A stretch of DNA of 64,000 bases from positions 3,462,392 to 3,526,391 of the forward strand of contig NZ_KI911783.1 in NCBI RefSeq assembly GCF_000515415.1, given 5' to 3'. The DNA comes from Bradyrhizobium sp. WSM1417. Its GTDB lineage: Bacteria > Pseudomonadota > Alphaproteobacteria > Rhizobiales > Xanthobacteraceae. The number at the start of each line of letters is the position of its first letter. Position 1 is the stretch's first letter. The translations under genes were made by a program, and so were the position numbers. The notes beneath the pieces were generated by a model that saw nothing but the letters and a program-made list of their open reading frames with translations, ran no database searches and had not been told where the DNA came from. This document shows, one piece after another, positions 8,428-23,532 of the stretch.

Positions 8428-8437
8428 GCAGGCTGCC

Positions 8438-9418
8438 TTATGTGGCGCGGCCGACGGTCGCGCGCAGGCGCGGATCGACGACGGTGTAGAGGATGTCGAC
8501 CACCAGATTGATGGTGACGAAAATCAGTGAGACCATCAGCAGGTAGGCGGCCATAATCGGGATATCGACGTTTTGCACGGCCTGCACGAACAGAAGTCCC
8601 ATGCCGGGCCATTGGAACACGGTTTCGGTGATGATCGAAAATGCAATAACCGAGCCAAACTGCAGTCCGGCCACCGTGATCACGGGAATCAGCGTGTTCT
8701 TCAGTGCGTGGCCGAAATGAATGGCACGGGTTGTCAGCCCACGGGCGCGGGCAAAGCGGATATAATCGGTCCGAAGCACTTCCAGCATCTCCGCGCGCAC
8801 CAGCCGCATGATCAGGGTCATCTGGAACAGGCCGAGCGTGATCGAGGGCATGATCAGCGCCTTCAGGCCCGACAATGTGAGCAGGCCCGTGGTCCACCAG
8901 CCGAGCTTGACGACCTCGCCGCGGCCGAACGAGGGCAACCAGCCCAACGTCACCGCGAACAGGTAGATCAGAAGGATGCCGATCAGGAAAGTCGGCAGCG
9001 AGATGCCGATCAGCGAAACCGCCTGGAATAATTTGGCGAGCAGGGTGTCGCGCCTGAGCGCCGAATAGACGCCCATCAGGATGCCGGACACCATTGCAAA
9101 TACGGTCGCGCAGATCGCAAGTTCCAGCGTTGCGGGCATACGTTCCATCAACAGCGTCGAGACCGGCTGGCGGAATTGATAGGAGACGCCGAACTTGAAT
9201 TGCGCGGCATCGGCGAAATAGCGCACGAACTGCACCGGCACGGGATCATCGAGGCCCAGCGACTTGCGCACGGCGGCGCGTTCGGCCGCCGGCGTATCGA
9301 GCGAGACGATCTGGTTGATGGGGTCGCCGGCGAAGCGGAACATCGAGAACGCGATGATGCCGACGGCGAACAAGACGCCGATAGCCTGAACGGCCCGGCG
9401 AAGAGTGAAAGCGAGCAT
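8438..9418 (-). CDS. Peptide ABC transporter permease, DppB/OppB type
   Basis: A permease of about 326 residues with six predicted membrane segments. It begins with the B-type first helix (VQAIGVLFAVGIIAFSMFRFAGDP), which runs into the RKSLGLDDPVPVQFVRYF region and the EAA loop DYIRFARARGLTTRAIHFGHALKN. The ATG at 9418 gives the usual MLAFTLRRAVQ start. A GTG at 9427 with AAGGA just upstream would add three residues and cannot be excluded. The gene lies about 50 bases beyond a strong terminator-like hairpin that follows the binding-protein gene. Confidence 0.93.
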   Translation of the reverse strand: MLAFTLRRAVQAIGVLFAVGIIAFSMFRFAGDPINQIVSLDTPAAERAAVRKSLGLDDPVPVQFVRYFADAAQFKFGVSYQFRQPVSTLLMERMPATLELAICATVFAMVSGILMGVYSALRRDTLLAKLFQAVSLIGISLPTFLIGILLIYLFAVTLGWLPSFGRGEVVKLGWWTTGLLTLSGLKALIMPSITLGLFQMTLIMRLVRAEMLEVLRTDYIRFARARGLTTRAIHFGHALKNTLIPVITVAGLQFGSVIAFSIITETVFQWPGMGLLFVQAVQNVDIPIMAAYLLMVSLIFVTINLVVDILYTVVDPRLRATVGRAT

Positions 9419-9467
9419 GCCTTCCACTTTCCTTGAGTGAGCGTCTGGCCGACGTCTTTGTCAGCCG

Positions 9468-9508
9468 AAAAAAGAAAGGTCCCGGTAGCCTGACGCTGCC
9501 GGGACCTT
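9468..9508 (-). terminator. Rho-independent terminator/attenuator between binding protein and permease genes
   Basis: On the minus strand a 14-bp stem with one G-T or mismatch pair (arms 9495-9508 and 9476-9489, core GGTCCCGG/CCGGGACC) and a 5-base loop is followed by a U tract (UUU C UUUUUU, 9468-9477). It lies directly after the binding-protein gene and before the first permease gene. Because the downstream genes show no separate promoter that I can recognise, it most likely reduces rather than stops transcription, giving more receptor than membrane components. Confidence 0.88.
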
Positions 9509-9522
9509 GTGTTCAACTGACG

Positions 9523-11118
9523 CTATTCCTTCTTGGTCGCCCAGTGGAACATGACCAGATTGTCGGCGCGCTGCGGCAGGTTGACCTTTTTCGATACGCC
9601 CCAGGCCAGCGCCTGCTGGTGCAGCGGAATATAAGCCCAGTCCTTGATGCTGATCTCATACGCCTGCTTGATCAGCTGATTGCGCTTGGCCGTGTCGGTT
9701 TCGACCAGCACCTTGTCGGTGATGGCGTCGAATTCCTTGTTGCAATAGCCGCCGAGATTGGCTTCGCCCCGCGAGGATTTCGCGTCGTCACGGCACCCCA
9801 TGATGTCGTAGAGCACGTTATGGGAGTCCATCGTGCTCGGCGTCCAGCCCAGCATGTAGAACGAGGTCTGATAGCCGCCCTGCTTCAACACCTTGGCGAA
9901 GTATTGCGCCTTGGGCTGCGCCAGCAGATTGATCTTGACGCCGATGCGGGCAAGCATGCCCACGACGGCCTGGCAGATCGCGGCGTCGTTGACGTACCGA
10001 TCGTTCGGGCAATCCATGGTGACCTCGAAGCCTTCGGGGTACCCGGCCTCCACCAGGAGCTTCTTGGCACCATCTGGATCGAACTTCGGCCGGGTGAACT
10101 CCTTGGACAGCACGAACAATTCCGGAGCGATCATCAGCGCCGAGGGCGTCGACAGCCCGCGCATCACCCGCGTCTTGATCAGCTCGATGTCGATCGCTTT
10201 GTAGAAGGCTTCGCGGACCTTGGCGTCCTTGAACGGGTTCTTGCCCTTGATGTTGGAGTAGAGCAGCTCGTCACGCGTCTGATCGAATCCGATGAAGATG
10301 GTGCGCAACTCAGGGGCCTTCAGCACCTGGGCATTCGGGCTCGCATCGACGCGGGAGATGTCCTGGATCGGCACCGGCTCGATCACGTCCACTTCACCCG
10401 AGAGCAGCGCGGCGACGCGGGTGGCATCGGACGAGATCGGGGTGAAGATGATCTCCTTCAGGTTACCTTCCATCTTGCCCCAGTAGTCGGGGTTGGCCTT
10501 GAACACGGTCTTCACACCGGGCTGATGGCTCTCGATGATGAAGGGACCGGTGCCGTTCTCGTGAAGCGAGGCATAGCTCGGAGACGTCGCGGATACCGGC
10601 GTCGGCTCGACCGCTTTGTTCTCCTCAGCCCATTTCTTGTCCATGATGTACCAGACATCCCACGACGAATGCAGGATGGGATTGGGCGAGGGAAGGACGA
10701 AATCGACGGTGTAGTCGTCGACCTTGACGACCTTGACGTTGGGCGCCAGGCGGGTCTGCATGTTCGAGTTCTTGTTGCGGACACGGTCGGCGGAGAACAG
10801 CACGTCGTCGGCGGTGAAGGGGTCGCCGTTGTGGAATTTGACGCCCTTGCGCAAATGGAAGCGCCAGCGGGTCGGCTCCGGTGTCTCCCAGCTCTCAGCC
10901 AGCGCCGGGATGATCTTCAGGTCCTTGTCGCGCGCGGTGAGGCCCTGATAGACGTGACCGAGATGAGCGTGGGTGGTGGACTCGTTCAGCGAGTAAGGAT
11001 CAAGCGACTTCAGGTCGCCTTGGTTGGCATAGCGCAGCGTCTGGCTCGACGCCGGCGAGACCGCCAACGCAAGCATACTGGCGAGCGTCGCCGCAAACAG
11101 ACTTCGTCCGACTGACAT
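9523..11118 (-). CDS. Peptide ABC transporter periplasmic binding protein
   Basis: A 531-residue family 5 solute-binding protein. A signal peptide covers about residues 1-26 (basic start, then LFAATLASMLALAVSPASSQ), and the mature protein starts TLRYANQGDLKSLDPYSLNE. Family blocks include WRFHLRKGVKFHNGDPFTADD and, near the end, WAYIPLHQQALAWGVSK. The ATG at 11118 is supported by GGAGAGG six bases upstream; a GTG at 11131-11133 is less likely. It is the first gene of the long minus-strand operon, and a sigma-54 promoter match lies about 100 bases upstream. Peptides are the likely ligands, but glutathione or opines are possible given the nearby gamma-glutamyltransferase. Confidence 0.93.
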   Translation of the reverse strand: MSVGRSLFAATLASMLALAVSPASSQTLRYANQGDLKSLDPYSLNESTTHAHLGHVYQGLTARDKDLKIIPALAESWETPEPTRWRFHLRKGVKFHNGDPFTADDVLFSADRVRNKNSNMQTRLAPNVKVVKVDDYTVDFVLPSPNPILHSSWDVWYIMDKKWAEENKAVEPTPVSATSPSYASLHENGTGPFIIESHQPGVKTVFKANPDYWGKMEGNLKEIIFTPISSDATRVAALLSGEVDVIEPVPIQDISRVDASPNAQVLKAPELRTIFIGFDQTRDELLYSNIKGKNPFKDAKVREAFYKAIDIELIKTRVMRGLSTPSALMIAPELFVLSKEFTRPKFDPDGAKKLLVEAGYPEGFEVTMDCPNDRYVNDAAICQAVVGMLARIGVKINLLAQPKAQYFAKVLKQGGYQTSFYMLGWTPSTMDSHNVLYDIMGCRDDAKSSRGEANLGGYCNKEFDAITDKVLVETDTAKRNQLIKQAYEISIKDWAYIPLHQQALAWGVSKKVNLPQRADNLVMFHWATKKE

Positions 11119-11423
11119 TCTTGACCTCTCCACTCGCCCGCACCGTCATTTTTGATTGTTCGGCGGGGCTGATCGAACCATGTTGCCCAGAGTTCTCGAC
11201 CCGTGCAAGCGCCATTCCAGCAAGGAACGCGCCAAGTTGCGCCGCTGTGCAGCAATGCTGACCGGCATTGACGGGCCGATGGGCGAGGGCGCCGGCGTTT
11301 TTGATTGACCATATCCGCCGATCGCGGAAGCCGGAGCGCCGCGACCGGCCTCAGGTCGCTTGCGTTGCACACCGTCTCGCGGCGATACTGCGGCCGGGCG
11401 CTCGAATCTCATCTGGAGGGGAC
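11119..11423. other. Divergent intergenic region
   Basis: This 305-base stretch separates the minus-strand peptide operon from the plus-strand lipid cluster. The one element I can support is the sigma-54 promoter match described separately. The right end carries the GGAGG ribosome binding site for the gene at 11424. I see no small gene or RNA and no clear sigma-70 promoter. Confidence 0.6.
11219..11235 (-). promoter_or_regulatory. Candidate sigma-54 (RpoN) promoter of the peptide operon
   Basis: The minus strand reads TTGGCGCGTTCCTTGCT. Against the consensus YTGGCACG-N4-TTGCW it has one mismatch (G for A). The invariant GG and GC dinucleotides have the required 10-base separation. Transcription would begin near 11210, giving a leader of roughly 90 bases before the binding-protein start at 11118. 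RpoN control would suit nitrogen-responsive peptide uptake. This is a motif match only, and chance matches occur in GC-rich DNA. Confidence 0.55.
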
Positions 11424-11681
11424 ATGAAGGTTAATATTGAAATCGACTGCACCCCCCTCGAAGCCCGTCAGTTCATCGGATTGCCCGATCTGGCACCGAT
11501 GCAGACGGCGGTGATGGACAAGCTGCAGCAGCAGGTCTTGAGCAACATCGACAAGGTCTCGCCGGAGTCGCTGATCCAGAGCTGGTTCACCTTCGATCCC
11601 AAGCTTGCCGAGCGGTTTCAGGACATGTTCGTCACCATGGCCGGCCTCGGCGGCACGCGCAGCGGCGACAAGAAGAAATAA
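11424..11681 (+). CDS. Small conserved protein, DUF6489-like
   Basis: An 85-residue cytoplasmic protein starting MKVNIEIDCTPLEARQFIGL, with GGAGGGG just upstream of the ATG. The pattern of an N-terminal MKVNIEIDCTP strand, then GLPDLAPMQ and a C-terminal FQDMFVTMAG helix resembles DUF6489, a family of unknown function; this name is from memory. An in-frame longer reading to 11268 lacks a ribosome binding site and is rejected. Its stop overlaps the ATG of the hydrolase gene (TAATG), so the two are translationally coupled. Confidence 0.8.
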   Translation: MKVNIEIDCTPLEARQFIGLPDLAPMQTAVMDKLQQQVLSNIDKVSPESLIQSWFTFDPKLAERFQDMFVTMAGLGGTRSGDKKK

Positions 11682-12481
11682 TGCCGCCCGGTCCGGACGG
11701 GCCGCAGACCCCAGGCCGGCTTCGTCCGCCCGGCCTTGCTTTGCTGCTCGCCGAAGCCCGTGGGTTGCTCGAACTCAACGCCAGCCTGCTGCTGTCGCCG
11801 GTCCTGATGCGGGCGCCCAAAGGCGATGGCCATCCGGTGCTGGCACTGCCTGGCTTCCTCGCCAGCGACCTCTCGATGGCGCCGATGCGGCGCTATCTCA
11901 GCGAGCTCGGCTATGAGGCACATGCCTGGCGGATGGGCCGCAATTTCGGCGGGTTCGGACGGATGCGGGATTCATTGCGCGCCCGTCTCGCCGAAATCCA
12001 TGCTGCGAGCGGACGCAAGGTCAGCCTGGTCGGCTGGAGCCTCGGCGGTGTCTATGCACGCGATCTCGCGCTGCAGGCGCCCGACTTGGTCCGCAATGTC
12101 ATCACGCTCGGCAGCCCTTTTGCCAATGACATAAGAGCGACCAATGCGACGCGGCTCTACGAGATGATGTCCGGCGAGCGTGTCGAGGATTTCGCCGAGC
12201 TGCGTGAGGCGATCGCCGGCGATCTTCCGGTGCCGACGACGTCGATCTATTCGCGCGCCGACGGCATCGTGAACTGGCGGACCTGCCTGCTGCGTCCCTC
12301 CGACCGCGCCGAGAACATCGAGGTGCACCTGGCAAGCCATATCGGGCTTGGGGTGAATCCCGCAGCGCTGTGGGCCGTGGCGGACCGCCTTGCGCAACCG
12401 GAGGGGGAGTTCTGGCCATTTGACAGGGCAGGGCCGTTTGCCATTGCATATGCCCCGCCGGAACAGGCAGTATCGGCCTGA
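11681..12481 (+). CDS. Alpha/beta hydrolase (lipase-like)
   Basis: A 266-residue alpha/beta hydrolase. The nucleophile elbow is GWSLGG (Ser nucleophile) inside KVSLVGWSLGGVYARDLA, and SPFANDI, SRADGIVNW (candidate Asp) and HIGLG (candidate His) complete a plausible triad. No signal peptide is seen. It is clearly paralogous to the protein at 25191-25961: both have GDGHPVL-LPG, GWSLGG-YAR, ITLGSPFA and a C-terminal PAAxxAVADRLAQxEGxxxPFDR. Its start is coupled to the small gene before it, and the WS/DGAT gene follows after 45 bases. The substrate is unknown; an acyl ester is a reasonable guess from context. Confidence 0.87.
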   Translation: MPPGPDGPQTPGRLRPPGLALLLAEARGLLELNASLLLSPVLMRAPKGDGHPVLALPGFLASDLSMAPMRRYLSELGYEAHAWRMGRNFGGFGRMRDSLRARLAEIHAASGRKVSLVGWSLGGVYARDLALQAPDLVRNVITLGSPFANDIRATNATRLYEMMSGERVEDFAELREAIAGDLPVPTTSIYSRADGIVNWRTCLLRPSDRAENIEVHLASHIGLGVNPAALWAVADRLAQPEGEFWPFDRAGPFAIAYAPPEQAVSA

Positions 12482-12526
12482 CGAGAAGCGCCGCCAAGGC
12501 GCCCGTCAAATACTCGGGAGGGAACT

Positions 12527-14077
12527 ATGGCTGACGGTAAGAAACTGTCGTCGCTGGACGCGGCGTTTCTCTATCTGGAAACGCCGGAAATGCCGATGCA
12601 TGTCGGGAGCATGGCGATCTTTCGCCTGCCGGACGACTACAAGGGCGACTTCTTCGAAGATTTCAAGGCAATGATCGTCTCGCGCCTGCACATCGCGCCG
12701 ATCCTCAAGGCGCGGCTGGAGAAGGCGCCGCTCGACATCGATCATCCCTCCTGGGTCGAGGACGATCAGTTCGACATCGACCGTCACATCTTCCGCGCCA
12801 GCCTGCCGCAGCCGCGCGACCGCGCCACGCTCGAACGCATCGTGGGCTGGATGCACGCCAAGCTCTTGAACCGCGCCCGCCCGCTCTGGGAGTTCTACGT
12901 GTTCGAGGGCATGAAGAACAACGAGGTCGGGCTTTATTCGAAGATGCATCATGCCGCCATCGACGGCGGCGCCGGTGCGGCGCTGACCAACATGATCTAC
13001 GATATCTCGCCGATCCCGCGGAAGGTCGATGCGCCGACCGCGGGAGCGAAGCCCGGGCAGGAGCCGCGCGACATCGCAGCGAACCTGGTCGATTCCTACC
13101 AGCAGCTCTTTACCCAGCCGCTCGATGCATCGGCCGCCGCGAAGAACCTGCAGCTGCCGCGCACCGGCAAGAGCGACATTGGCTCGATCCTGTTCGACAA
13201 TGCGATGTACCAGATCGAGAGCGCGGTGCGCTTTGCCGGCAACATCCCGACCATGGTCAAGAGCGTCTCGGACGTGCTCGGCAAGATATCCGATCCAAAA
13301 TCGCGCGAGAGCCTTGCCAGCATGGTGTCGCCGCCGACCATGCTCAACAAATCGATCTCGTCCGAGCGCAGCTTCGCCGGCGTCTCGATTTCGCTGTCGC
13401 GATCCAAGGCGCTGGCCAAGCAGGCCGGCGGCAAGCTCAACGACGTCGTGCTGGCGCTCGCCTCCGGCGTGGTCCGGCGCTACCTCCAGCAACACGGAAC
13501 GCTGCCGGCGAAGTCCCTGACCGCTGCCGTGCCGATCTCGCTGCGTGAGGAAGGCAATACCGAAGCCAACAACCAGGTGTTCGGCATGATCTGCTCGATC
13601 GCGACCAACATCGACGATCCCAAGGCACGCCTGGAAGCCATTATCGCGCAATCGACCAAGTCCAAGGAGATGTCGCATCCGCTGCGGGCGCTGATGCCGC
13701 AGATCTCCAATATCTCGATGCTGGGCGCGCCGATCGTCGTGCAGATCATGGCGCTGCTCTACAGCCGCTCCGATTTGTCGAATGTGCTGCCGCCGGCTGC
13801 GAACATCACGGTGTCCAACGTGCCGGGGCCGCGGCAGACGCTGTACGCCGCGGGCGCGGAGCTGCTGCACATCTTCCCGGTGTCGATCTCGACGCACGGA
13901 CAGGCGCTCAACATCACCGTGCAGAGCTATCGCGACCAGCTCGATTTCGGCTTCATTGTCGGCGCCAACATCATTCCGCACGTGCAGGTGATGTGCGACA
14001 TGCTGCCGGAAGAATTCGCCGCGCTGGAGGCGGCCTATGCTTTGCCCGCTGCGGACATCAAGGGCGCCGCTGAGTAG
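12527..14077 (+). CDS. Wax ester synthase/diacylglycerol acyltransferase (WS/DGAT)
   Basis: A 516-residue member of the bifunctional WS/DGAT family, which uses acyl-CoA to esterify fatty alcohols or diacylglycerol. The catalytic motif HHxxxDG is present as HHAAIDG at residues 141-147. Other family blocks are LSSLDAAFLYLETPEMPMHVGS at the N-terminus, RPLWEFYVFEG before the active site and NVPGPRQTLYAAGAELLHIFPVS in the C-terminal domain. Length and order are normal for the family. A GGGAGG ribosome binding site precedes the ATG. The epoxide hydrolase-like gene follows after 10 bases, so both are probably on one transcript. WS/DGAT enzymes are not standard in rhizobia with PHB as the main reserve, so the product here deserves testing. 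Confidence 0.93.
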   Translation: MADGKKLSSLDAAFLYLETPEMPMHVGSMAIFRLPDDYKGDFFEDFKAMIVSRLHIAPILKARLEKAPLDIDHPSWVEDDQFDIDRHIFRASLPQPRDRATLERIVGWMHAKLLNRARPLWEFYVFEGMKNNEVGLYSKMHHAAIDGGAGAALTNMIYDISPIPRKVDAPTAGAKPGQEPRDIAANLVDSYQQLFTQPLDASAAAKNLQLPRTGKSDIGSILFDNAMYQIESAVRFAGNIPTMVKSVSDVLGKISDPKSRESLASMVSPPTMLNKSISSERSFAGVSISLSRSKALAKQAGGKLNDVVLALASGVVRRYLQQHGTLPAKSLTAAVPISLREEGNTEANNQVFGMICSIATNIDDPKARLEAIIAQSTKSKEMSHPLRALMPQISNISMLGAPIVVQIMALLYSRSDLSNVLPPAANITVSNVPGPRQTLYAAGAELLHIFPVSISTHGQALNITVQSYRDQLDFGFIVGANIIPHVQVMCDMLPEEFAALEAAYALPAADIKGAAE

Positions 14078-14087
14078 GAATGTTCCG

Positions 14088-15083
14088 ATGATTGAAATGC
14101 CGCCGCTCAAGTTCGTGCAGACGAACGGAATCCGCATGGGCTACTACGAGGCGGGCCCGGTCACAGACAAGCCGCCGATCGTGCTGTGCCATGGCTGGCC
14201 CGAACTCGCATTTTCCTGGCGCCACCAGATCAAGGCGCTGAGCGAGGCCGGCATCCGGGTGATTGCGCCGGACCAGCGCGGCTACGGCGCGACCGACCGG
14301 CCCGAGCCGGTCGAGGACTACGACATGGAGCATTTGACCGGCGATCTGGTCGGGCTGCTCGATCATCTCGGGATCGACAAGGCGATCTTCGTCGGCCACG
14401 ACTGGGGCGGATTCGTCGTCTGGCAGATGCCGCTGCGACATCCTTCGCGCGTTGCCGGTGTGGTCGGCGTCAACACGCCGCATTGGGACCGCGCACCGAT
14501 CGATCCGATCGCCCTGTTCCGCCAGCGCTTCGGCGATCAGATGTACATCGTCCAGTTTCAGGATCCCGCGCGTGAGCCGGACAGGATCTTCGGCAGCCGC
14601 GTCGAGCAGACGTTCGACGCCTTCATGCGCAAGCCGCTGGCGCGGCCGGCGGAGAAACCGGAGGGGCCGCCGATCGCGGGTGTCGGCGCCTCGTCGAAGA
14701 CCAATCTGGCATTCCCGCAGATGATCGCAGCCTACGATGCAAAGCACGATCCGCGTACGCCGATCCTGTCGGCCGACGAGAAGAAGGTGTTCGTCGATGC
14801 GTTCACGAAAACCGGCTTCACCGGTGGCATCAACTGGTATCGCAACTTCACTCGCAATTGGGAGCGCGCGAAAGGCCTGGACCATCACGTGCACGTGCCG
14901 TCATTGATGATCATGGCCGAGAACGATGCTGTGCTGCCGCCGTCGGCGGCCGACGGCATGGAGACGCTGATATCTGATCTGGAGAAACATCTTGTGAAGG
15001 ACAGCGGCCATTGGACGCAGCAGGAGAAGCCAGAGGAGGTCAGCGCCAAGCTGATCGAATGGCGTAGAAGGCGGTTTGGCTAG
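14088..15083 (+). CDS. Epoxide hydrolase-like alpha/beta hydrolase
   Basis: A 331-residue alpha/beta hydrolase with features of soluble epoxide hydrolases. The oxyanion motif is HGWPE, the nucleophile Asp lies in VGHDWGGFV, and the final His is in DSGHWTQQEKPEEV with an acid near MAENDAVLPP. Cap-domain Tyr residues that would activate the epoxide may include those in GGINWYRNFTRNWE. I chose the ATG at 14088 because AGGAA lies 8 bases upstream; an in-frame start at 14037 would overlap the WS/DGAT gene. It precedes the P450 fusion gene, an arrangement that suits hydrolysis of an epoxide made by the P450, but haloalkane dehalogenase-like activity cannot be ruled out. Confidence 0.88.
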   Translation: MIEMPPLKFVQTNGIRMGYYEAGPVTDKPPIVLCHGWPELAFSWRHQIKALSEAGIRVIAPDQRGYGATDRPEPVEDYDMEHLTGDLVGLLDHLGIDKAIFVGHDWGGFVVWQMPLRHPSRVAGVVGVNTPHWDRAPIDPIALFRQRFGDQMYIVQFQDPAREPDRIFGSRVEQTFDAFMRKPLARPAEKPEGPPIAGVGASSKTNLAFPQMIAAYDAKHDPRTPILSADEKKVFVDAFTKTGFTGGINWYRNFTRNWERAKGLDHHVHVPSLMIMAENDAVLPPSAADGMETLISDLEKHLVKDSGHWTQQEKPEEVSAKLIEWRRRRFG

Positions 15084-15128
15084 CTCGCAACGACGGCGTT
15101 GAATACCGAGGCAGGGGAAGCACTTTTA

Positions 15129-18100
15129 ATGTCATCGAAGAACCGTCTGGACCCGATCCCGCAGCCGCCGACCAAGCCGGTGGTCGGCAACATGCTGTCG
15201 CTGGATTCGGCTGCGCCGGTGCAGCATCTGACCCGGCTTGCCAAGGAGCTGGGGCCGATCTTCTGGCTCGACATGATGGGCTCCCCGATCGTGGTCGTCT
15301 CCGGCCACGATCTTGTCGACGAGCTCTCGGACGAGAAGCGCTTCGACAAGACGGTGCGCGGTGCGCTGCGGCGGGTGCGCGCGGTCGGTGGCGACGGCCT
15401 GTTCACGGCCGACACCAGGGAGCCGAACTGGAGCAAGGCGCACAACATCCTGCTCCAGCCCTTCGGCAACCGCGCCATGCAGTCCTATCACCCGAGCATG
15501 GTCGACATTGCCGAGCAGCTCGTCGGTAAATGGGAACGGCTCAACGCCGATGACGAGATCGACGTCGTCCACGACATGACGGCACTGACGCTGGATACGA
15601 TCGGGCTATGCGGCTTCGACTACCGCTTCAATTCGTTCTACCGGCGCGACTACCATCCTTTCGTCGAGTCGCTGGTGCGCTCGCTCGAAACCATCATGAT
15701 GACGCGCGGGCTGCCGTTCGAGCAGCTCTGGATGCAGAAGCGGCGCAAGACGATGGCTGAAGACGTCGACTTCATGAACAGGATGGTCGACGAGATCATT
15801 GCGGAGCGCCGCAAGGGAGGCGATGCGACCGACGACAAGAAGGATATGCTTGCGGCGATGATGACGGGCGTCGATCGCTCGACCGGCGAACAGCTCGACG
15901 ACGTCAACATCCGCTATCAGATCAACACGTTCCTGATCGCAGGCCACGAGACCACCAGCGGCCTGTTGTCCTGCACGCTGTATGCGCTGCTCAAGCACCC
16001 CGAGATTCTCAAGAAGGCCTATGACGAGGTCGACCGCGTCTTCGGTCCCAATGTCGACGTGCGGCCAACCTATCAGCAGGTGACGCAGCTCACCTACATC
16101 ACGCAGATCCTGAAGGAGGCGCTGCGGCTATGGCCGCCGGCGCCGGCCTATGGCATCTCGCCGCTGAACGACGAGACCATCGGCGGCGGCAAGTACAAGC
16201 TCAGGAAGGGTACGTTCACCACCATCCTGGTGACCGCGCTGCATCGTGACCCTACCGTCTGGGGTCCGAACCCGGACGCGTTCGATCCGGAGAATTTCAA
16301 CCGGGAGGCGGAAGCCAAGCGGCCGATCAATGCCTGGAAGCCGTTCGGCAACGGCCAGCGCGCCTGCATCGGCCGCGGCTTCGCCATGCACGAGGCTGCG
16401 CTCGCGCTCGGCATGATCCTCCAGCGCTTCAAGCTGATCGACCACCAGCGCTACCAGATGCATCTGAAGGAAACGCTGACGATGAAGCCGGAAGGCTTCA
16501 AGATCAAGGTCCGTCCGCGCGCCGATCGCGAGCGCGGTGCCTATGGCGGACCTGTCGCGGTGTCGTCGGCGCCGAAGGCCCCGCGTCAGCCCACCGCACG
16601 TCCCGGCCACAACACGCCGATGCTGGTCCTTTACGGCTCCAATCTCGGCACCGCCGAGGAGCTGGCGACTCGGATGGCCGACCTTGCCGAGATCAACGGC
16701 TTTGCCGTGCATCTGGGGCCGCTCGACGGTTACGTCGGCAAGCTGCCGCGGGAGGGCGGCGTGCTGATCATCTGTGCTTCCTATAACGGCGCGCCGCCGG
16801 ACAATGCGACGCAATTTGTCAAATGGCTCGGCGACGAGCTGCCAAAGGATGCGTTTGCCGATGTGCGCTACGCCGTGTTCGGCTGCGGTAACAGCGACTG
16901 GGCCGCGACCTATCAATCGGTGCCGCGCTTCATCGATGAGCAATTGTCGGCGCATGGCGGGCGCGCGGTCTATCCGCGCGGCGAAGGCGATGCGCGCAGC
17001 GATCTCGACGGCCAGTTTCAGAAATGGTTCCCGGCGGCCGCCCAGGTCGCGACCAAGGAATTCGGCATCGACTGGAATTTCACCCGTACCGCGGAGGACG
17101 ATCCGCTCTACGCGATCGAGCCGGTGGCGGTGACCGCCGTCAACACCATCGTCGCCCAGGGCGGCGCAGTGGCCATGAAGGTGCTGGTCAACGACGAGCT
17201 TCAGAACAAGAGCGGGGCCAATCCGTCGGAGCGCTCGACGCGCCACATCGAGGTGCAGCTGCCCTCCAACATCACGTACCGCGTCGGCGATCATCTGAGC
17301 GTGGTCCCGCGCAACGATCCGACGCTGGTGGACTCGGTTGCCCGTCGCTTCGGCTTCCTGCCGGCTGACCAGATCAGGCTTCAGGTCGCTGAAGGCCGCC
17401 GCGCGCAATTGCCGGTCGGCGATGCCGTGTCGGTCGGCCGTCTGCTCAGCGAGTTCGTCGAGCTCCAGCAGGTCGCGACGCGGAACCAGATTAAGATCAT
17501 GGCCGAGCACACCCGCTGCCCGGTGACCAAGCCGAAGCTGCTGGGCTTTGTCGGGGAGGAGGCTGAGCCGCTGGAGCGCTATCGCGGCGAGATTCTCGCC
17601 AGGCGAAAATCGGTGTTCGATCTGCTGCTCGAATATCCGGCCTGTGAATTGCCGTTCCACGTCTATCTGGAAATGCTCTCGCTGCTGGCGCCGCGTTATT
17701 ATTCGATCTCGTCTTCGCCGTCGCTGGACCCGGTTCGTTGCAGCGTCACGGTCGGCGTGGTTGAAGGACCGGCCGCCTCGGGCCGCGGCACCTACAAGGG
17801 TATCTGCTCGAACTATCTCGCCAATCGGCGCGCGGGCGACGTGATCCATGCAACCGTGCGTGAGACCAAGGCCGGCTTCCGGCTCCCGGACGATCCGTCC
17901 GTGCCGATCGTCATGATCGGCCCGGGCACGGGACTGGCACCCTTCCGCGGCTTCCTCCAGGAGCGCGCCGCGCGAAAGTCCAAGGGCACCGCGCTCGGTC
18001 CGGCCATGCTGTTTTTCGGCTGCCGTCATCCCGATCAGGATTTTCTCTACGCGGAAGAGCTGAAGGCGCTGGTGGCGAGCGGCATCACCGAGCTGTTCAC

Positions 18101-18362
18101 GGCGTTCTCGCGCGCGGAGGGCCCCAAGACCTATGTTCAGCACGTCCTCGCCGCGCAGAAGGACAAGGTCTGGCCGCTGATCGAGCAGGGCGCGATCGTT
18201 TATGTCTGTGGCGACGGCAGCAAGATGGAGCCCGACGTGAAGGCGGCGCTGGTCGCGATCCATCGCGAGAAGAGCGGCAGCGATGCCGCCACGGCTGCGC
18301 GCTGGATCGAGGAGATGGGCGCCAGGAATCGGTATGTGCTGGACGTCTGGGCGGGTGGATAA
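15129..18362 (+). CDS. Self-sufficient cytochrome P450/NADPH-P450 reductase fusion, CYP102 type
   Basis: A 1077-residue soluble fusion in the order P450, FMN flavodoxin, FAD/NADPH reductase, as in Bacillus P450 BM3 (CYP102A1, about 1050 residues). The P450 part has the I-helix AGHETTSG, the ExxR motif KEALR and the heme loop FGNGQRACIG with the Cys ligand at about residue 413. The FMN domain begins near residue 498 with MLVLYGSNLGTAEELA. The reductase has the FAD motif RYYSISSSP (about residue 855) and the nucleotide motif GPGTGLAPFRGF (about residue 930), and ends with a C-terminal aromatic stretch (VLDVWAGG). Known CYP102 enzymes hydroxylate or epoxidise fatty acids. The ATG at 15129 gives a BM3-like start. 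The preceding epoxide hydrolase and WS/DGAT genes support a fatty-acid substrate. Confidence 0.95.
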   Translation: MSSKNRLDPIPQPPTKPVVGNMLSLDSAAPVQHLTRLAKELGPIFWLDMMGSPIVVVSGHDLVDELSDEKRFDKTVRGALRRVRAVGGDGLFTADTREPNWSKAHNILLQPFGNRAMQSYHPSMVDIAEQLVGKWERLNADDEIDVVHDMTALTLDTIGLCGFDYRFNSFYRRDYHPFVESLVRSLETIMMTRGLPFEQLWMQKRRKTMAEDVDFMNRMVDEIIAERRKGGDATDDKKDMLAAMMTGVDRSTGEQLDDVNIRYQINTFLIAGHETTSGLLSCTLYALLKHPEILKKAYDEVDRVFGPNVDVRPTYQQVTQLTYITQILKEALRLWPPAPAYGISPLNDETIGGGKYKLRKGTFTTILVTALHRDPTVWGPNPDAFDPENFNREAEAKRPINAWKPFGNGQRACIGRGFAMHEAALALGMILQRFKLIDHQRYQMHLKETLTMKPEGFKIKVRPRADRERGAYGGPVAVSSAPKAPRQPTARPGHNTPMLVLYGSNLGTAEELATRMADLAEINGFAVHLGPLDGYVGKLPREGGVLIICASYNGAPPDNATQFVKWLGDELPKDAFADVRYAVFGCGNSDWAATYQSVPRFIDEQLSAHGGRAVYPRGEGDARSDLDGQFQKWFPAAAQVATKEFGIDWNFTRTAEDDPLYAIEPVAVTAVNTIVAQGGAVAMKVLVNDELQNKSGANPSERSTRHIEVQLPSNITYRVGDHLSVVPRNDPTLVDSVARRFGFLPADQIRLQVAEGRRAQLPVGDAVSVGRLLSEFVELQQVATRNQIKIMAEHTRCPVTKPKLLGFVGEEAEPLERYRGEILARRKSVFDLLLEYPACELPFHVYLEMLSLLAPRYYSISSSPSLDPVRCSVTVGVVEGPAASGRGTYKGICSNYLANRRAGDVIHATVRETKAGFRLPDDPSVPIVMIGPGTGLAPFRGFLQERAARKSKGTALGPAMLFFGCRHPDQDFLYAEELKALVASGITELFTAFSRAEGPKTYVQHVLAAQKDKVWPLIEQGAIVYVCGDGSKMEPDVKAALVAIHREKSGSDAATAARWIEEMGARNRYVLDVWAGG

Positions 18363-18392
18363 TCCGGCGGCCGATCGTGCTAAAGCTCTCGC

Positions 18393-19067
18393 ATGATTCC
18401 CTGGGAAAAGATCGATACCGCCAAAATCCCCGGCTCCGATGAAGAGCTTCGCCTGATGCGGCGAGGCAAGGAGTTCTCCATCAAGCTCGGCACCAACGAG
18501 CTGATGAACAACCGCTTGTCAGGCTCGGAAGCCGCGCTCGCCACGCTCGCGGCGAAGCAGATCGAGATGGTCGCAAAGCCTGTCGTCCTCATCGGCGGTC
18601 TGGGCATGGGTTTCACGCTGCGTGCGGCGCTGACCGTGCTGGGAGGCAAGGCGAAGATCGTGGTTTGCGAACTCGTGCCGGCGGTCGTCGCCTGGGCGCG
18701 GGGCCCGATGGCGCAGGTGTTCGGTGACAGTCTCGATGACGTCAGGGTGAGCATCCGGGAAACCGACGTTGGCGAAATCATCCGGGCGCGGCGGTCGGCC
18801 TTCGACGCCATTCTCCTCGACGTCGACAACGGGCCGGAAGGGCTGACCCGGAAGGGCAACGATGCGCTCTACAATGCGGGTGGGTTGAAGGCGGCGAAGA
18901 CGGCGCTGCGGCCGGGAGGCGTGCTCGCGGTCTGGTCCTCGGGACCCAATCCGGCCTTCACCAAGCGGCTCGGGAATGCTGGCTTCGACGTCAACGAAGT
19001 CAACATTCGCGCCACCGGAAGAGGCGGTGGCGCGCGCCACGTGATCTGGATGGCCAGGAAGGGCTAG
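18393..19067 (+). CDS. Spermidine-synthase-like methyltransferase-fold protein
   Basis: A 224-residue Rossmann-fold protein of the spermidine synthase/SAM-methyltransferase type. Motif I reads LIGGLGMGFTLRAAL, an acidic residue follows in KIVVCELVPAVV, and DAILLDVDNGPEG is the spermidine-synthase-like segment. The usual N-terminal beta domain of true spermidine synthases is very short. It starts 30 bases after the P450 fusion without a strong ribosome binding site, so cotranscription is possible but not proven. Whether it makes polyamines or methylates something is open. Confidence 0.8.
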   Translation: MIPWEKIDTAKIPGSDEELRLMRRGKEFSIKLGTNELMNNRLSGSEAALATLAAKQIEMVAKPVVLIGGLGMGFTLRAALTVLGGKAKIVVCELVPAVVAWARGPMAQVFGDSLDDVRVSIRETDVGEIIRARRSAFDAILLDVDNGPEGLTRKGNDALYNAGGLKAAKTALRPGGVLAVWSSGPNPAFTKRLGNAGFDVNEVNIRATGRGGGARHVIWMARKG

Positions 19068-19096
19068 GCCGCCTGCCCAGCAACCGGTTCAGTCCG

Positions 19097-19561
19097 TCAG
19101 AACATCGTGTTGTTGTTCGCCGGATTTTCCGGGATCGGTTGCACGACGTCCCAGTGTTCGACCACCTTGCCGTTCTCCAGCTTGAAGATGTCGATGATCG
19201 CGTTGCCCCTGCTGCCGGGCTCGCGAACCGCGTGAACGTGCAGGATGACGTAGTCGCCATCCACGAAGCTGCGCTTGATCTCGCTGTGCGAGTTTGGGAA
19301 TTTCTCGCGCAGGAAGCCGATGAACTTTCGGAAGCCGTCCGGACCATCGGCCGCGTTTGGATTGTGCTGGACGTAACGGTCGCCGACATGGGCGAGGGCT
19401 GCATCGGCATCCTTTTGGTTGAGCCCCTTCTCGTAGAACGCAAGCACAGTTTTGCGATTGGCTTCTTCTTGCGCGCTACCCGCCATCGCGGCGCCGCTGG
19501 CGAGGGACAGCGTGAGGACTGAAGCGGCGACGATTGCGGCTGACCGGACGATGGGATGCAT
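19097..19561 (-). CDS. Exported SnoaL-like (NTF2-fold) protein
   Basis: A 154-residue protein with a clear signal peptide (about residues 1-27, ending AAMAGSA) and a single SnoaL-like NTF2 fold. The start KTVLAFYEKGLNQKDADAAL, the HVGDRYVQHNPNAADGPDGF block and the end VEHWDVVQPIPE are typical of a family often annotated as nuclear transport factor 2-like or polyketide cyclase-like. The family holds many predicted enzymes of unknown substrate. On the minus strand a 6-bp perfect stem (19572-19577 with 19582-19587, loop of 4) lies just before its ribosome binding site. Confidence 0.85.
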   Translation of the reverse strand: MHPIVRSAAIVAASVLTLSLASGAAMAGSAQEEANRKTVLAFYEKGLNQKDADAALAHVGDRYVQHNPNAADGPDGFRKFIGFLREKFPNSHSEIKRSFVDGDYVILHVHAVREPGSRGNAIIDIFKLENGKVVEHWDVVQPIPENPANNNTMF

Positions 19562-19706
19562 GTGAACTCCGAGAGGCCGCAGCCTCTTTCTTGCGGATTG
19601 AGGTTCTTGGCGATTGAGGAAAGGCTGTATAGCTTCCGTGCCGGCTTGCGTTAAGAGAGTAATCGGCAGCTCACATGGTCACCGTGAGGAGACCTTCTGC
19701 GTCGGT

Positions 19707-20621
19707 TTACGCCGCACGCGCCGCCGCGCCATGTGCGTGCTGGGCGATGGCGCCGATGATCTCCGGCCAGAACCGCATCGGCAGCGCGTGGCCCATGCCT
19801 TCGATCATCAACAGCTTGGCGCCCGGAATTGACTCTGCCGTGTCCCTGCCGCCCTCGGGACGGACCAGGGGATCGACGGTACCGTGGATGACCAGCGTCG
19901 GCGTCTTCACGCCATGCAGTCGCTCCTTGCGGCTGCCGGAGGCAAGCACCGCGCGGAGCTGCCGGCCGACACCGGCCGGATTGAGCCCGCGCGCGAACAC
20001 GCGTTCGGCACGACCGGGATCAAGCGCCTCTTCTTCCGGAAAGGACCCGGCCCGCAACACGTTCCAGGTCTGGCCGTAACGGGCGATAAACTCCTCCTTG
20101 CTGCGCGGCGGCGGCGCCATCAGCATCGCGGCGGCCTCACGTGTCGGGGGCGGCACGCGCGGATTGCCGGTCGTCGACATGATCGAGGTCAGCGAGCGCA
20201 CGCGCTCGGGAAACGACAACGTCACTTCCTGCGCAATCATGCCGCCCATGGACGCCCCGACCAGATGCGCCGACTTGATGCCGAGTGCGTCCATCAGCCC
20301 GATCGTGTCTTTCGCCATGTCGATCAGCTTGTAGGTTGCGGCGACGGGAATCCTGAGAAACCGAAGCTTCAACAACTCAAGCGGCGTCAGACGCTTGCCG
20401 CCGGTGAGATGGCTCGACTTTCCGATGTCGCGATTGTCGAACCGAACGACGCGAAAGCCGTGCGCGGCAAGCTGCTCGCAGAACGCATCGTCCCAGTGGA
20501 TCATCTGGGCGCCTAACCCCATGATCAGCAGCAGCGGCTCGGCATTGTCGTTGCCGAAAATCTCGTAACAGATGTCGATGCCGTTGGCGTGGACGGTTTG
20601 CGGCGGATGATAGGCGTTCAC
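19707..20621 (-). CDS. Alpha/beta hydrolase
   Basis: A 304-residue alpha/beta hydrolase with nucleophile elbow GASMGG (Ser), an acid in HGTVDPLVRPEGG and the His in GMGHALPM. The N-terminal HANGIDICYEIFG and MGLGAQMIHWDDAFCEQLAA are common in esterase/haloperoxidase-like members. I start it at the GTG at 20621, which follows GAGGGA at good spacing; the open frame to 20906 runs into the divergent PHA promoter region and looks artificial. It is divergent from the phaE/phaC-like operon with about 170 bases between them, so a link with PHA turnover is possible but unproven. Confidence 0.87.
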   Translation of the reverse strand: MNAYHPPQTVHANGIDICYEIFGNDNAEPLLLIMGLGAQMIHWDDAFCEQLAAHGFRVVRFDNRDIGKSSHLTGGKRLTPLELLKLRFLRIPVAATYKLIDMAKDTIGLMDALGIKSAHLVGASMGGMIAQEVTLSFPERVRSLTSIMSTTGNPRVPPPTREAAAMLMAPPPRSKEEFIARYGQTWNVLRAGSFPEEEALDPGRAERVFARGLNPAGVGRQLRAVLASGSRKERLHGVKTPTLVIHGTVDPLVRPEGGRDTAESIPGAKLLMIEGMGHALPMRFWPEIIGAIAQHAHGAAARAA

Positions 20622-20792
20622 GGGTGCGTTCCCTCGGCTTTTGATCAATGCTGTATCGCACGGTTTCCCCTCGCAATGAAGCCGCGTTCGCGACACCGGA
20701 CCCGTTGCTTGCCGGTTGACCGGCACCGCGCAACGGTGTGGTATGGCGAAAAAGGGAAGGGCATCGAAGCTCTCGAATTCAGGAGGACGCCG

Positions 20793-21176
20793 ATGACCGG
20801 CAAGAGCAACGACCCCATTGCCATGTGGCAGAAGATGGTTGGCGAGATGGAGAAGGGGTTCAATTCCTTCGCCGATCAGGCCATGTCGTCGCCCGAGTTT
20901 TCGCAAGCCGTGAACCGGGCCGGCGGCGTTGCTGCAGGTGCTCAGAAGCAGCTCGGCGACCTCATGGAGAAATATCTGGTCTCCATGAATCTACCGAGCC
21001 GGGACCAGGTCACCGGTCTTGCGGAGCGGCTGCAGTCCATCGAAGGACAGATCGGTGAGATCAAGTCGATGCTGAGCCAGATGGCGGCAAGTTCCGGCAT
21101 TTCTCAGGGCTCCGATACTGCATTGCGCCCGCCGCGCACCAAGCGCCCACCATCTGAAGGCGGAGAGCAGACATGA
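20793..21176 (+). CDS. Very small PhaE/PhaR-like PHA synthase partner
   Basis: A 127-residue protein preceded by a strong AGGAGG. The region MNLPSRDQVTGLAERLQSIE (about residues 66-85) matches the C-terminal conserved NLPSR/NLPSK helix of PhaE (class III) and PhaR (class IV) PHA synthase subunits. N-terminal to it there are only about 65 residues (MWQKMVGEMEKGFNSFADQA and a helical stretch), whereas classical PhaE has about 350 and Bacillus PhaR about 200. The tail after residue 95 is Pro/Arg-rich and probably disordered. Its stop overlaps the phaC ATG by 4 bases, which strongly supports a subunit relation. The assignment rests on one motif and this coupling. Confidence 0.75.
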   Translation: MTGKSNDPIAMWQKMVGEMEKGFNSFADQAMSSPEFSQAVNRAGGVAAGAQKQLGDLMEKYLVSMNLPSRDQVTGLAERLQSIEGQIGEIKSMLSQMAASSGISQGSDTALRPPRTKRPPSEGGEQT

Positions 21177-22255
21177 ATGCACCCGCCGGATTAGACTTCG
21201 CAGGGATCCCGGAGCGGATCCAGTCCGAGGTGCAACGCGCCATCCAGCGCAGCATCAAGGGCGTCGAATATTTTTCGACGTCCGGTCCCACGCTCGGCTC
21301 GACGCCGAAGGACGTGCTGCATTCGCGCGGCACGATGAGCCTCTACCATTATCGGCCGATGTCCGACGAGATCTATCGAATTCCGATCTTGATCGTGATG
21401 GCGACCACCAATCGCGGTTACATTCTCGACCTCGTGCCCGGCCAGAGTTTTATCGAGTTCCTGTTGAAGCGCGGTTACGACGTCTACATGCTCGACTGGA
21501 GCGCGCCGCGGCCGGAGGAGAAGAGCCTCCGCATGGAGGACTATGTCCTCGACTTCATCCCGGATTGCATCCGCCGCGTGCAGCAGGATTCCGGCGAACA
21601 GGACGTCTCCGTCATCGGCTATTGCTTCGGCGGCGTGCTGTCGCTGCTCTACGGCTCGATCCACAAGGACGGGCCGATGAAGAATTTGATCTGCTTCACC
21701 ACGCCGATCGACTTTCGCGAGATGAAGCTGTTCTCGAACTTTTCCGACCGTCGCTATTTCGACGTCGATCGCCTCGTCGACAGCATCGGCAACGTGCCAC
21801 CGGAGATGATCCTGTCGTCGTTCGAGATGCTGCGCCCGGCCTCCCGCACCGTCAGCCAGATTCAGCTCTGGGAAAACATCTGGAACGACGAGTTCGTCAA
21901 ATCCTACCGGATGTTCGACCGCTGGGCGACCGACACGCTGCCGCTGGCCGGCGAATATTTCCGCACCATCACCAAGGACCTGATGTGGGACAACAAGCTG
22001 TTCAACGACACCATGTCGGTCGGCGGCCGTGCTGCGAAGCTCGAGGACATCAAGGTGCCGTTCCTGCATGCGGTTGCCGAGCATGACCACATCGTGCCGT
22101 ATGAGGCGGCAAAGCACCTGATCGCCAAGATTGGATCGGAGGACAAGGAGGAGGTGATGCTGAAGGGCGGTCACGTCTCGCTCGTCGCCGGCGCCAATGC
22201 GGTGAAGCGACTGTGGCCGAAACTGGATTCCTGGCTGGGGAAGAGATCGACATGA
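21173..22255 (+). CDS. phaC: Class III/IV-type poly(R)-hydroxyalkanoic acid synthase PhaC
   Basis: A 360-residue PHA synthase that polymerises hydroxyacyl-CoA into storage granules. The lipase-like box is GYCFGG with Cys151 as nucleophile, the Asp lies in AEHDHIVP and the general-base His in KGGHVSLVAG. DYVLDFIPDCIRRV and MLDWSAPRPEEKSLRMEDY are family blocks. A length of about 360 residues and the need for a partner protein fit class III or IV, not the roughly 600-residue class I enzyme usual for rhizobial PHB. The ATGA overlap with the small PhaE-like gene and the 4-base overlap with the acetyltransferase gene give a tight three-gene unit. Confidence 0.93.
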   Translation: MNAPAGLDFAGIPERIQSEVQRAIQRSIKGVEYFSTSGPTLGSTPKDVLHSRGTMSLYHYRPMSDEIYRIPILIVMATTNRGYILDLVPGQSFIEFLLKRGYDVYMLDWSAPRPEEKSLRMEDYVLDFIPDCIRRVQQDSGEQDVSVIGYCFGGVLSLLYGSIHKDGPMKNLICFTTPIDFREMKLFSNFSDRRYFDVDRLVDSIGNVPPEMILSSFEMLRPASRTVSQIQLWENIWNDEFVKSYRMFDRWATDTLPLAGEYFRTITKDLMWDNKLFNDTMSVGGRAAKLEDIKVPFLHAVAEHDHIVPYEAAKHLIAKIGSEDKEEVMLKGGHVSLVAGANAVKRLWPKLDSWLGKRST

Positions 22256-22845
22256 GTGAGCAGCGTTCCTATCCGCGTCATGTGAAGACGGACGCCGGCG
22301 ATATCGAGATCCGCCTGATGTCGCCCGCGGACGAAGCCGCGGTGCTCGCGTTCGGCAAAGGCCTGCCGACCCACGACCTGTTGTTCCTGCCGCGCAACAT
22401 CAGTGAGCCGAAGGTGCTCTCCGCCTGGGTCAAGGAGATCGAGCGCGGCGCGATCACGAGCCTGCTCGCGGTCAGGGGCGGCACGGTGGTCGGCTGCGGC
22501 ACGCTGGTGCGCGATCCGCACTCCTGGTCGCCCCATGTCGGCGAGATCCGGATGGTGGTTTCGCTCGACGTGCGCGGGAAGGGGGTGGGGCGAACACTGT
22601 CGCAGGAGACCTTCGCCCTCGCGCTCGGCGCCGGCCTCGAAAAGCTCTCGGTCCAGATGACAGTCGACCAGCAGGCGGCGATCACGCTGTTCGAGAGCCT
22701 CGGCTTCAAGGCCGAGGCACTGCTGCGCGATCATGTCCGGGACGTCGACGGCAAGACTCACGACATCGTCGTGCTCGGGCACAATATCGCGCAGGTCCAG
22801 GCCCAGATGGAGGCCTATGGGCTGCCTGGCGCCGTCCAGCATTGA
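22252..22845 (+). CDS. GNAT family N-acetyltransferase
   Basis: A 197-residue GNAT protein. The acetyl-CoA binding motif A is RMVVSLDVRGKGVGRTLSQ, followed by ALGAGLEKLSVQMTVDQQAAI and LFESLGFKAEALLRDHV, the usual order. The ATG at 22252 overlaps the phaC stop, and GAAGAGA lies upstream. An acetyltransferase in a PHA synthase operon is unusual. It might modify a granule protein or handle CoA thioesters, but its substrate cannot be read from sequence. Confidence 0.86.
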   Translation: MSEQRSYPRHVKTDAGDIEIRLMSPADEAAVLAFGKGLPTHDLLFLPRNISEPKVLSAWVKEIERGAITSLLAVRGGTVVGCGTLVRDPHSWSPHVGEIRMVVSLDVRGKGVGRTLSQETFALALGAGLEKLSVQMTVDQQAAITLFESLGFKAEALLRDHVRDVDGKTHDIVVLGHNIAQVQAQMEAYGLPGAVQH

Positions 22846-22930
22846 GAACCGTTGGACGGGTGTTCGGGAACCCGGATGGTCAGGGAGGCGCCAGATTGCT
22901 CCCCGTTAAGGCTATTCACGGCTTCGTGAT

Positions 22931-22980: not shown

Positions 22981-23048
22981 GCCGTGCCCCGGGCCAAAAC
23001 CGGACGGGGTGAGCCCATAGCTCAACCAATGAGGATGGAGAGACCCCA

Positions 23049-23504: not shown

Positions 23505-23532
23505 TACGGCGCCTGAGTAAAAACTGAATTTG

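Follow-up and report, generated by a model that had tools for sequence, protein, structure and literature searches.

The CYP102 enzymes are among the most engineered cytochromes P450 (P450s), and their natural role is unsettled. The locus described here (positions 11424-19067, plus strand) lies in a window of 64,000 nucleotides, i.e. the whole stretch of DNA analysed, within the 8.05 Mb single-contig genome of Bradyrhizobium sp. WSM1417; it encodes a CYP102-type P450 (gene E) close to a wax ester synthase/diacylglycerol acyltransferase (WS/DGAT; gene C), the two genes on which this report centres:

12527-14077, plus strand: gene C, WS/DGAT (PF03007, 216 bits; TIGR02946, 410.7 bits against a cut-off of 309.95)
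15129-18362, plus strand: gene E, self-sufficient CYP102-type P450 fused to an FMN/FAD reductase, 1077 amino acids (aa), start at ATG 15129 (PF00067, PF00258, PF00667 and PF00175)

With moderate confidence, we regard the locus as the version, in Bradyrhizobium, of an ancient storage-lipid island of the Alphaproteobacteria, with the CYP102-type P450 and the WS/DGAT working as a pair.

The closest described P450s are those of the CYP102A family, i.e. P450 BM3 (CYP102A1) and CYP102A6 of Bradyrhizobium diazoefficiens, which have in common with gene E the single-chain P450-FMN-FAD architecture and the equivalents of F87, A264, E267, T268 and C400. Gene E differs from BM3 in the replacement of R47 and Y51, in a conserved Arg at position 72, and in being embedded in a storage-lipid island. 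The comparison with CYP102A6, which is included in a residue table in the available part of PMC9281120, is made at the level of the family. The WS/DGAT systems of Acinetobacter, Marinobacter and Rhodococcus have the enzyme family and the HHxxxDG motif in common with gene C; unlike those systems, 17 of the 20 genomes with P450 and WS/DGAT examined below are without a strong fatty-acyl-reductase-type match, and the P450 adjoins instead.

The location of WS/DGAT within regions of genes for polyhydroxyalkanoate (PHA) has been noted before for Ahrensia and Sulfitobacter in the covered parts of PMC10351704, and those islands are of the same kind as the one described here: Sulfitobacter sediminilitoris JBTF-M27 corresponds to L060 in our set (loci are numbered L, and genomes G), and Ahrensia sp. 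R2A130 to L093, with P450 and WS/DGAT located on separate stretches. The main text of that paper nowhere uses the term P450 (0 occurrences; figures and supplement were outside the search), and nothing in the parts covered describes the tie to a P450, how widely it occurs or the form seen in Bradyrhizobium. The Bradyrhizobium genes phbC1/phaC4 (blr2885) and phaP5 (blr2887) match the PHA synthase (PhaC) and the phasin of the window by gene order, and the PhaR site of phaP5 is identical; the papers on these genes, in their available parts, treat polyhydroxybutyrate and do not tie it to the neighbouring P450, epoxide hydrolase and WS/DGAT. The initial annotation of the window knew of no described pathway with this set of genes, and a literature search without most subscription papers likewise found no paper joining a P450 with WS/DGAT in these bacteria. 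The P450-WS/DGAT link, for which we found no report, is what is new here; WS/DGAT near PHA genes was already known (PMC10351704).

Co-occurrence and linkage of P450 and WS/DGAT

Among 98 genomes of the genus, 93 contain both P450 and WS/DGAT, five contain neither (G030, G041, G048, G065 and G097), and 0 are discordant. In 92 of these 93, the two genes share a contig and are separated by 1035-1244 bp (median, 1144 bp); in G089, contigs break between them. P450 is in pieces in G073 and G090, and G039, G051 and G089 have a fragmented or incomplete WS/DGAT.

A family sample of 149 genomes, seven of them from the genus, was searched with a P450 threshold of at least 55% identity: 27 genomes contain both genes, two P450 only (G202, G235), two WS/DGAT only (G126, G150), and 118 neither (Fisher 4.5e-25, kinship uncorrected). 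For WS/DGAT in this sample, a protein search found 25 and the family model 29 of the 149. Both genes are within ~6 kb on one contig in 17 of the 20 non-genus family genomes that have both; in G155 they are split over contigs. Eighteen non-genus family loci have a P450 of at least 74% identity (L015-L031 and L036), and 13 of these keep the order C-D-E, D being the gene for an epoxide hydrolase. A long-chain acyl-CoA ligase gene lies between D and E in two of the 13 (L016, L024) and in L036, which ends before gene C; L023, L026, L030 and L031 are without gene C, and L026 also without D. G126 (L037) has a P450 fusion of 44-49% identity in two reading frames (7198-10288 and 10394-11971) adjoining its WS/DGAT, a split that may represent decay or an assembly error.

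An order sample (219 genomes) contained a P450 of 60-61% identity in two genomes outside the family (G306 and G443), each with WS/DGAT ~5 kb away and in opposite orientation; G278 has WS/DGAT and no P450 match. In a class sample of 240 genomes, the genome of the window is the only one with P450, and 11 genomes, this one among them, have WS/DGAT; the latter count (10 of 239 other genomes) comes from the stricter protein search, and the family model finds somewhat more. A further set of named loci comprised the best 80 of 325 P450 relatives, 42 from Bradyrhizobium and 38 others (34 outside Bradyrhizobium and Afipia), and WS/DGAT is located 999-8376 bp from the P450 in 62 of these best 80. At least 6 kb of upstream sequence is available for 39 of the 42 Bradyrhizobium loci, and WS/DGAT is present in 39 of 39; among the 38 others, 21 are well flanked (an upstream flank of 6 kb or more and a downstream one of 6.5 kb or more), with WS/DGAT in 17 of 21, four being Afipia. 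Linkage outside the home family rules out that the P450 adjoining WS/DGAT is a quirk of that family.

The loci outside the home family also indicate what travels with the pair. Variants of the order E, (GNAT), (phasin), DUF445, phasin, B2, C, (FadD), with B2 an alpha/beta hydrolase and FadD an acyl-CoA ligase, are found in Reyranella, Rhodobacterales and Rhizobiaceae loci and in several metagenome-assembled genomes (MAGs); islands with P450 and WS/DGAT no more than 10 kb apart were mapped in Mesorhizobium (L048, L049), Aestuariivita (L054), Sulfitobacter (L057, L060), Ahrensia (L066) and Reyranella (for example L077, L096, L099, L103). The recurrent members are P450, WS/DGAT, the B2-type hydrolase, phasin and DUF445, often with FadD or PHA synthase; of the 34 loci from neither Bradyrhizobium nor Afipia, 11 contain FadD and some contain MaoC or PhaC (the labels phasin, FadD, MaoC and PhaC were confirmed with Pfam or NCBIfam for L099 and L060 alone). 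The initial annotation had proposed a linked set of six genes (A to F). Recurrence beyond chance was found for the WS/DGAT-P450 neighbourhood, in 92 of the 93 genus genomes with both and further out, and WS/DGAT, epoxide hydrolase and P450 are linked in relatives; the six genes are no single conserved set, since tblastn detected the DUF6489 protein (gene A), the epoxide hydrolase (gene D) and the sixth gene (gene F) in 0 of 34 named loci from outside the home family, a few of these loci being short. By the same count, the epoxide hydrolase is not supported as a core member of the wider island.

The association extends to genomes in which the two genes are not seen side by side. A set of 35 chosen genomes was scanned for WS/DGAT (PF03007). 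Twenty of them had been identified through named loci with a P450, and WS/DGAT was found in 20 of these 20; the other 15 had been taken by G number. Sixteen of the 20 had been chosen since their locus showed no WS/DGAT (16 of 18 such, L056 and L119 being left out), and four since their locus did; several of the 16 loci end at contig ends, and G700 and G702 contain WS/DGAT fragments only, over the PF03007 cut-off. No WS/DGAT was found with PF03007 in six genomes with P450 fusions of 38-49% identity (G101, G110, G119, G286, G291 and G325) or in the five genus genomes without P450; since these distant fusions are without WS/DGAT, the tie is to the clade of the window's P450. Away from P450, the neighbours of WS/DGAT are PHA synthase, MaoC, FadD and B2 in L130, L133 and L135, with phasin and DUF445 nearby in L130 and L135. 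L129, L136 and L137 have PHA synthase beside WS/DGAT, L131 has PHA synthase and B2, L138 has FadD, phasin and B2, L141 has phasin and B2, and L132 has B2 alone; L134 has none of PHA synthase, MaoC, FadD, phasin, DUF445 and B2. Over 24 representatives, P450 and WS/DGAT distances correlate with r = 0.96 (0 of 2000 permutations as high), and the correlation of P450 with B2 is lower (0.68).

Taken together, the P450 and WS/DGAT look intact (see below), adjoin across several orders, and are mostly present or absent together; the stable unit is P450 plus WS/DGAT inside a phasin/PHA/acyl-CoA-ligase island.

Catalytic residues and the source of the alcohol

Gene E aligns over residues 9-1076 with the P450 BM3-type chain 8dmg_A (1023.6 bits), and its four domains PF00067, PF00258, PF00667 and PF00175 follow in this order on one chain, i.e. 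the CYP102 architecture. In an alignment of 117 P450 sequences, each scoring >800 bits to the window protein and the latter included, the equivalents of F87, A264, E267, T268 and C400 are invariant (117/117), so that the heme thiolate Cys (C400) and the acid/alcohol pair of the I-helix (E267, T268) are in place; by these features, gene E looks like a sound CYP102-type enzyme. R47 and Y51 are the carboxylate anchors of BM3, a trait of BM3 and not of the whole CYP102 family. The window P450 has Ser and Val at these positions; Arg at position 47 is found in 1/117 and Tyr at 51 in 0/117 sequences, Ile or Val occupies 51 in 115/117, and Arg at position 72 is kept in 115/117. Gene E probably holds its substrate in another way than BM3.

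Gene C scores over the curated cut-off of TIGR02946 and carries the active-site motif as HHAAIDG; HHxxxDG is present in 92 of 93 aligned WS/DGAT sequences, the remaining one being gapped there. In each of 75 aligned sequences, the epoxide hydrolase (gene D) has the full set of an EphA/soluble epoxide hydrolase (sEH) enzyme, i.e. the Asp nucleophile, HGxP, the Asp-His pair and two lid tyrosines. In an HMMER alignment, residues 381 and 465 of mouse sEH, which we take to be catalytic there, are matched by the Tyr of MYIVQF and the Tyr of WYRN, respectively, in the window protein. Loss of one lid tyrosine, suspected from a single alignment, was ruled out by this numbering; the corresponding MAFFT column is gap-shifted, and the residue counted is the Tyr of MYIVQF.

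As to the alcohol that WS/DGAT would esterify, the fatty acyl reductase domain PF07993 was sought in 34 genomes; because this family is broad and matches all 14 control genomes too, only strong matches (E <1e-35) were counted. A strong match was found in 7 of 10 class genomes with WS/DGAT and without this P450 vs. 3 of 20 with both (Fisher p=0.005, kinship uncorrected; the ten genomes represent six genera, and the seven represent four). The open frames in the seven are 682-720 aa in five genomes and 1134-1153 aa in two, the latter presumably resembling carboxylic acid reductases; in the three they are 760, 336 and 2935 aa, of which one is of reductase length and the frame of 2935 aa may be part of a large synthase. 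G030, G048, G202 and G235, all without WS/DGAT, gave no strong match. The lower number of reductases in genomes with P450 and WS/DGAT is suggestive as to the alcohol source. No fatty acyl reductase was recognised among the island genes identified, where Kennedy-pathway genes were not searched for, and among these genes the P450 is the evident candidate for making a new hydroxyl.

Proposed function and alternative explanations

Most likely, we infer, the P450 would hydroxylate acyl chains and the WS/DGAT would esterify the hydroxyl, giving an estolide- or wax-type lipid. Fatty acids would be activated by FadD, which is in the island of many genera; the P450 would hydroxylate the acyl chain, probably near the methyl end, where known CYP102 enzymes hydroxylate; WS/DGAT would esterify the P450-made hydroxyl with another acyl-CoA to an estolide-like or wax-like neutral lipid; this would be stored in granules with a phasin coat, alongside PHA or mixed with it, and be mobilised by hydrolases of the B/B2 type. 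The epoxide hydrolase would be an addition of the home family, converting P450-made epoxides of unsaturated chains (cis-vaccenate is a likely substrate) to diols, which could also be acylated or degraded. The initial annotation had read the gene order as oxygenation of fatty acids, opening by the hydrolase and esterification or release; the intact catalytic residues of P450 and epoxide hydrolase and the co-occurrence of WS/DGAT agree with this, but epoxidation followed by opening is unlikely to be the ancestral logic, since 0 of the 34 loci from beyond the family contain the epoxide hydrolase, and may be a local extension within the family.

We propose more tentatively that many Alphaproteobacteria obtain the alcohol for WS/DGAT from a CYP102-type enzyme instead of a fatty acyl reductase, that the product is an in-chain (estolide-type) ester possibly co-deposited with PHA, and that this is the natural role of this CYP102 clade. 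If true, this would represent a new source of acceptor alcohol for bacterial neutral-lipid synthesis, would suggest an overlooked storage lipid in soybean symbionts, and would offer enzymes for estolide-type lipids; the presence or absence of the clade mostly together with WS/DGAT, among phasin and PHA genes, makes its natural role directly testable.

Several observations weigh against a working pair. G202 and G235 keep the P450 with no WS/DGAT in the whole genome, G150 of the family has WS/DGAT and no P450 match, and the WS/DGAT of G187 and G238 is a different copy, elsewhere in the genome; no WS/DGAT is found in the stretch of four of the 21 well-flanked non-Bradyrhizobium loci (L047, L051, L058 and L093). 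PhaR-type sites are not clearly enriched before P450 (12/120 vs. 386/5000 random windows). With R47 and Y51 replaced, the P450 may act on something other than a free fatty acid bound in the BM3 manner, and WS/DGAT may only make triacylglycerol from diacylglycerol, for which the P450 is not needed. The association tests are not independent, the genomes being related, and the favoured pathway, with its substrate and product, is predicted from sequence.

A storage toolbox without a common product is the most probable alternative, though less likely than the working pair: WS/DGAT would make triacylglycerol, PhaC would make PHA, and the P450 would hydroxylate fatty acids to another end, such as turnover or PHA monomer supply, the genes being grouped since all serve granules at carbon excess. 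Such an arrangement would suit the loci in which PHA synthase, MaoC/PhaJ-like, FadD or phasin genes accompany WS/DGAT with the P450 on another stretch (L129, L130, L133, L135), as well as the PHA-gene regions of Ahrensia and Sulfitobacter noted in PMC10351704; however, P450 and WS/DGAT are bound by joint presence and absence as well as by place, a tie that a loose grouping does not require. Alternatively, slow rearrangement might have kept the genes together without a common function. The 98 genus genomes are related, and much of their synteny is inherited, but the linkage in other orders has a different gene order and orientation, and the two genes still occur together in genomes where no linkage is visible in the fetched stretch; we consider mere inheritance of the neighbourhood very improbable.

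The P450 and the epoxide hydrolase could also oxidise or detoxify unsaturated or epoxy fatty acids of the plant (oxylipin or cutin handling), with WS/DGAT parking the excess. The full catalytic set of the epoxide hydrolase fits this, as do data on B. diazoefficiens bacteroids in the available parts of PMC6321122, where blr2881 (epoxide hydrolase) is in a table, and blr2882 in a figure legend, of a pattern rising as nodules senesce; we infer from gene order that blr2882 is the P450, framed as it is by the epoxide hydrolase blr2881, the PHA synthase blr2885 and the phasin blr2887. Sulfitobacter, Aestuariivita and Reyranella, in contrast, have the P450/WS-DGAT pair with no epoxide hydrolase in the fetched stretch, and we regard this explanation as unlikely.

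Gene content and regulation of the island

The other genes and elements of the neighbourhood, beside genes C and E, are as follows:

11360-11389, plus strand: conserved promoter-like element upstream of gene A (TTGCGT, 18 nt, GATACT)
11424-11681, plus strand: gene A, DUF6489 small protein (PF20099, 47.5 bits vs. cut-off 23.6)
11681-12481, plus strand: gene B, alpha/beta serine hydrolase with GWSLGG, esterase- or lipase-like (PF00561, 26.6 bits, cut-off 25.8)
14088-15083, plus strand: gene D, alpha/beta epoxide hydrolase of the soluble EH/EphA type (EphA, PDB 5cw2, 1.8e-68; mammalian soluble epoxide hydrolase, 1cqz, 1.6e-62)
18393-19067, plus strand: gene F, weakly spermidine-synthase-like protein, accessory (PF01564, 25.0 bits vs. 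Pfam cut-off 22.9)
21173-22255, plus strand: PHA synthase, class III-like PhaC with GYCFGG, phbC1/phaC4-type (TIGR01836, 320 bits vs. cut-off 365.3)
22213-22845, plus strand: GNAT acetyltransferase (PF00583)
22952-22963, plus strand: PhaR-type box TGCATCGCACAA, 97 bp before the phasin gene
23049-23504, plus strand: phasin, phaP5-type, equated with blr2887 by gene order (PF09361, 47.5 bits)
23701-24990, plus strand: DUF445 protein, in the conserved island of other orders too (PF04286, 361 bits)
25086-25961, plus strand: gene B2, alpha/beta hydrolase, the copy most similar to the hydrolase adjoining WS/DGAT outside the home family

The six closely spaced plus-strand open reading frames of the initial annotation were recovered at approximately the places given there, with intergenic spacing from a 1-nt overlap to 45 nt; genes A and B are joined by TAATG and overlap by 1 base, and the best start of gene D is ATG 14088, 10 nt past gene C. 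A solute-binding protein is encoded upstream of gene A on the opposite strand (9523-11133), and gene F is followed on the minus strand by a SnoaL-like protein and an alpha/beta hydrolase, then by PhaC. The conserved neighbourhood extends past the six genes, with PhaC, GNAT, phasin, DUF445 and B2 (21173-25961) belonging to it, and the storage-lipid theme of the initial annotation is supported. Gene B is a paralogue of B2. The PhaC, equated with blr2885 by gene order, falls short of the TIGR01836 cut-off, with class III still its best-matching class.

Genes A and B are variably present among the non-genus family loci. Gene A is at the locus in 39, and gene F in 36, of the 46 named Bradyrhizobium/Afipia loci; F is also present in G229 and, within the genus, in part of the loci. 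In L082, a named Bradyrhizobium locus, the six proteins are 85-95% identical to those of the window. The likeness of gene F to spermidine synthases noted in the initial annotation holds at the weak level of PF01564, but its best NCBIfam score is 32.3 bits vs. a cut-off of 472 for the spermidine synthase (SpeE) equivalog; by this score, gene F is not a spermidine synthase, and with its patchy distribution it is not supported as a pathway member.

For genes A to F as an operon, gaps of -1 to 45 nt and the promoter-like element before A were found, and plus-strand terminator-like matches within A-F (12546, 14016, 14018) lie in coding sequence; such matches in the region are no more frequent than in shuffles. 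The pattern TTGC[AG][TC]...GATA[CG]T occurs upstream of gene A in 22 of 27 loci compared; since a generic sigma-70 scan gave no promoter in 11150-25000, it is this conservation that marks the element. An apparent PhaR site preceding gene A (TGCGTTGCACAC at 11361), which would have linked the PHA regulator with the P450 genes, was rejected, as it overlaps the conserved promoter-like hexamer (11360-11365) and as only 9 of 28 upstream stretches have a TGCNNNGCA box (one of the nine, L004, repeats the window). TGCNNYGCA was found upstream of 65 of 72 phasin-labelled genes vs. 386 of 5000 random windows, and the box TGCATCGCACAA before the window's phasin is the same 12-mer as the PhaR site listed for phaP5 of strain USDA110 in the available part of PMC6201568, where phasin blr2887 is up 129-fold without PhaR. 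The PHA synthase blr2885 is poorly expressed or absent according to the part of PMC10888616 available. A PhaR-type box (TGCGTTGCAACA or one base off) is also located upstream of WS/DGAT in Reyranella (L077, L096, L099, L116, L120) and in two MAGs (L088, L089); in L099, a divergent phasin gene is the next gene beyond it.

Several family members have a second, separate WS/DGAT cluster (L127 of G187, L128 of G136 and L140 of G232), with an acyl-CoA ligase-like gene before WS/DGAT in all three, a B2-type hydrolase and a phasin-like gene upstream of WS/DGAT in L128 and L140, and a GNAT-like gene downstream in L127 and L140; no P450 is labelled in these three stretches. A tblastn search of plasmids with WS/DGAT gave 41 records, all below 60% identity in the best place. 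In several distant genomes, the gene immediately after the P450 encodes a GNAT acetyltransferase; this is so in L047 and L051 even with WS/DGAT elsewhere. An FMN-dependent oxidoreductase of the lactate dehydrogenase type is encoded between the phasin-like gene and B2 in Mesorhizobium (L048, 18650-19969). Directly after the island, the window contains PaaX and phenylacetate paaA, paaB and paaC-like genes (26010-29101), and paa genes are close by again in G202 and G235.

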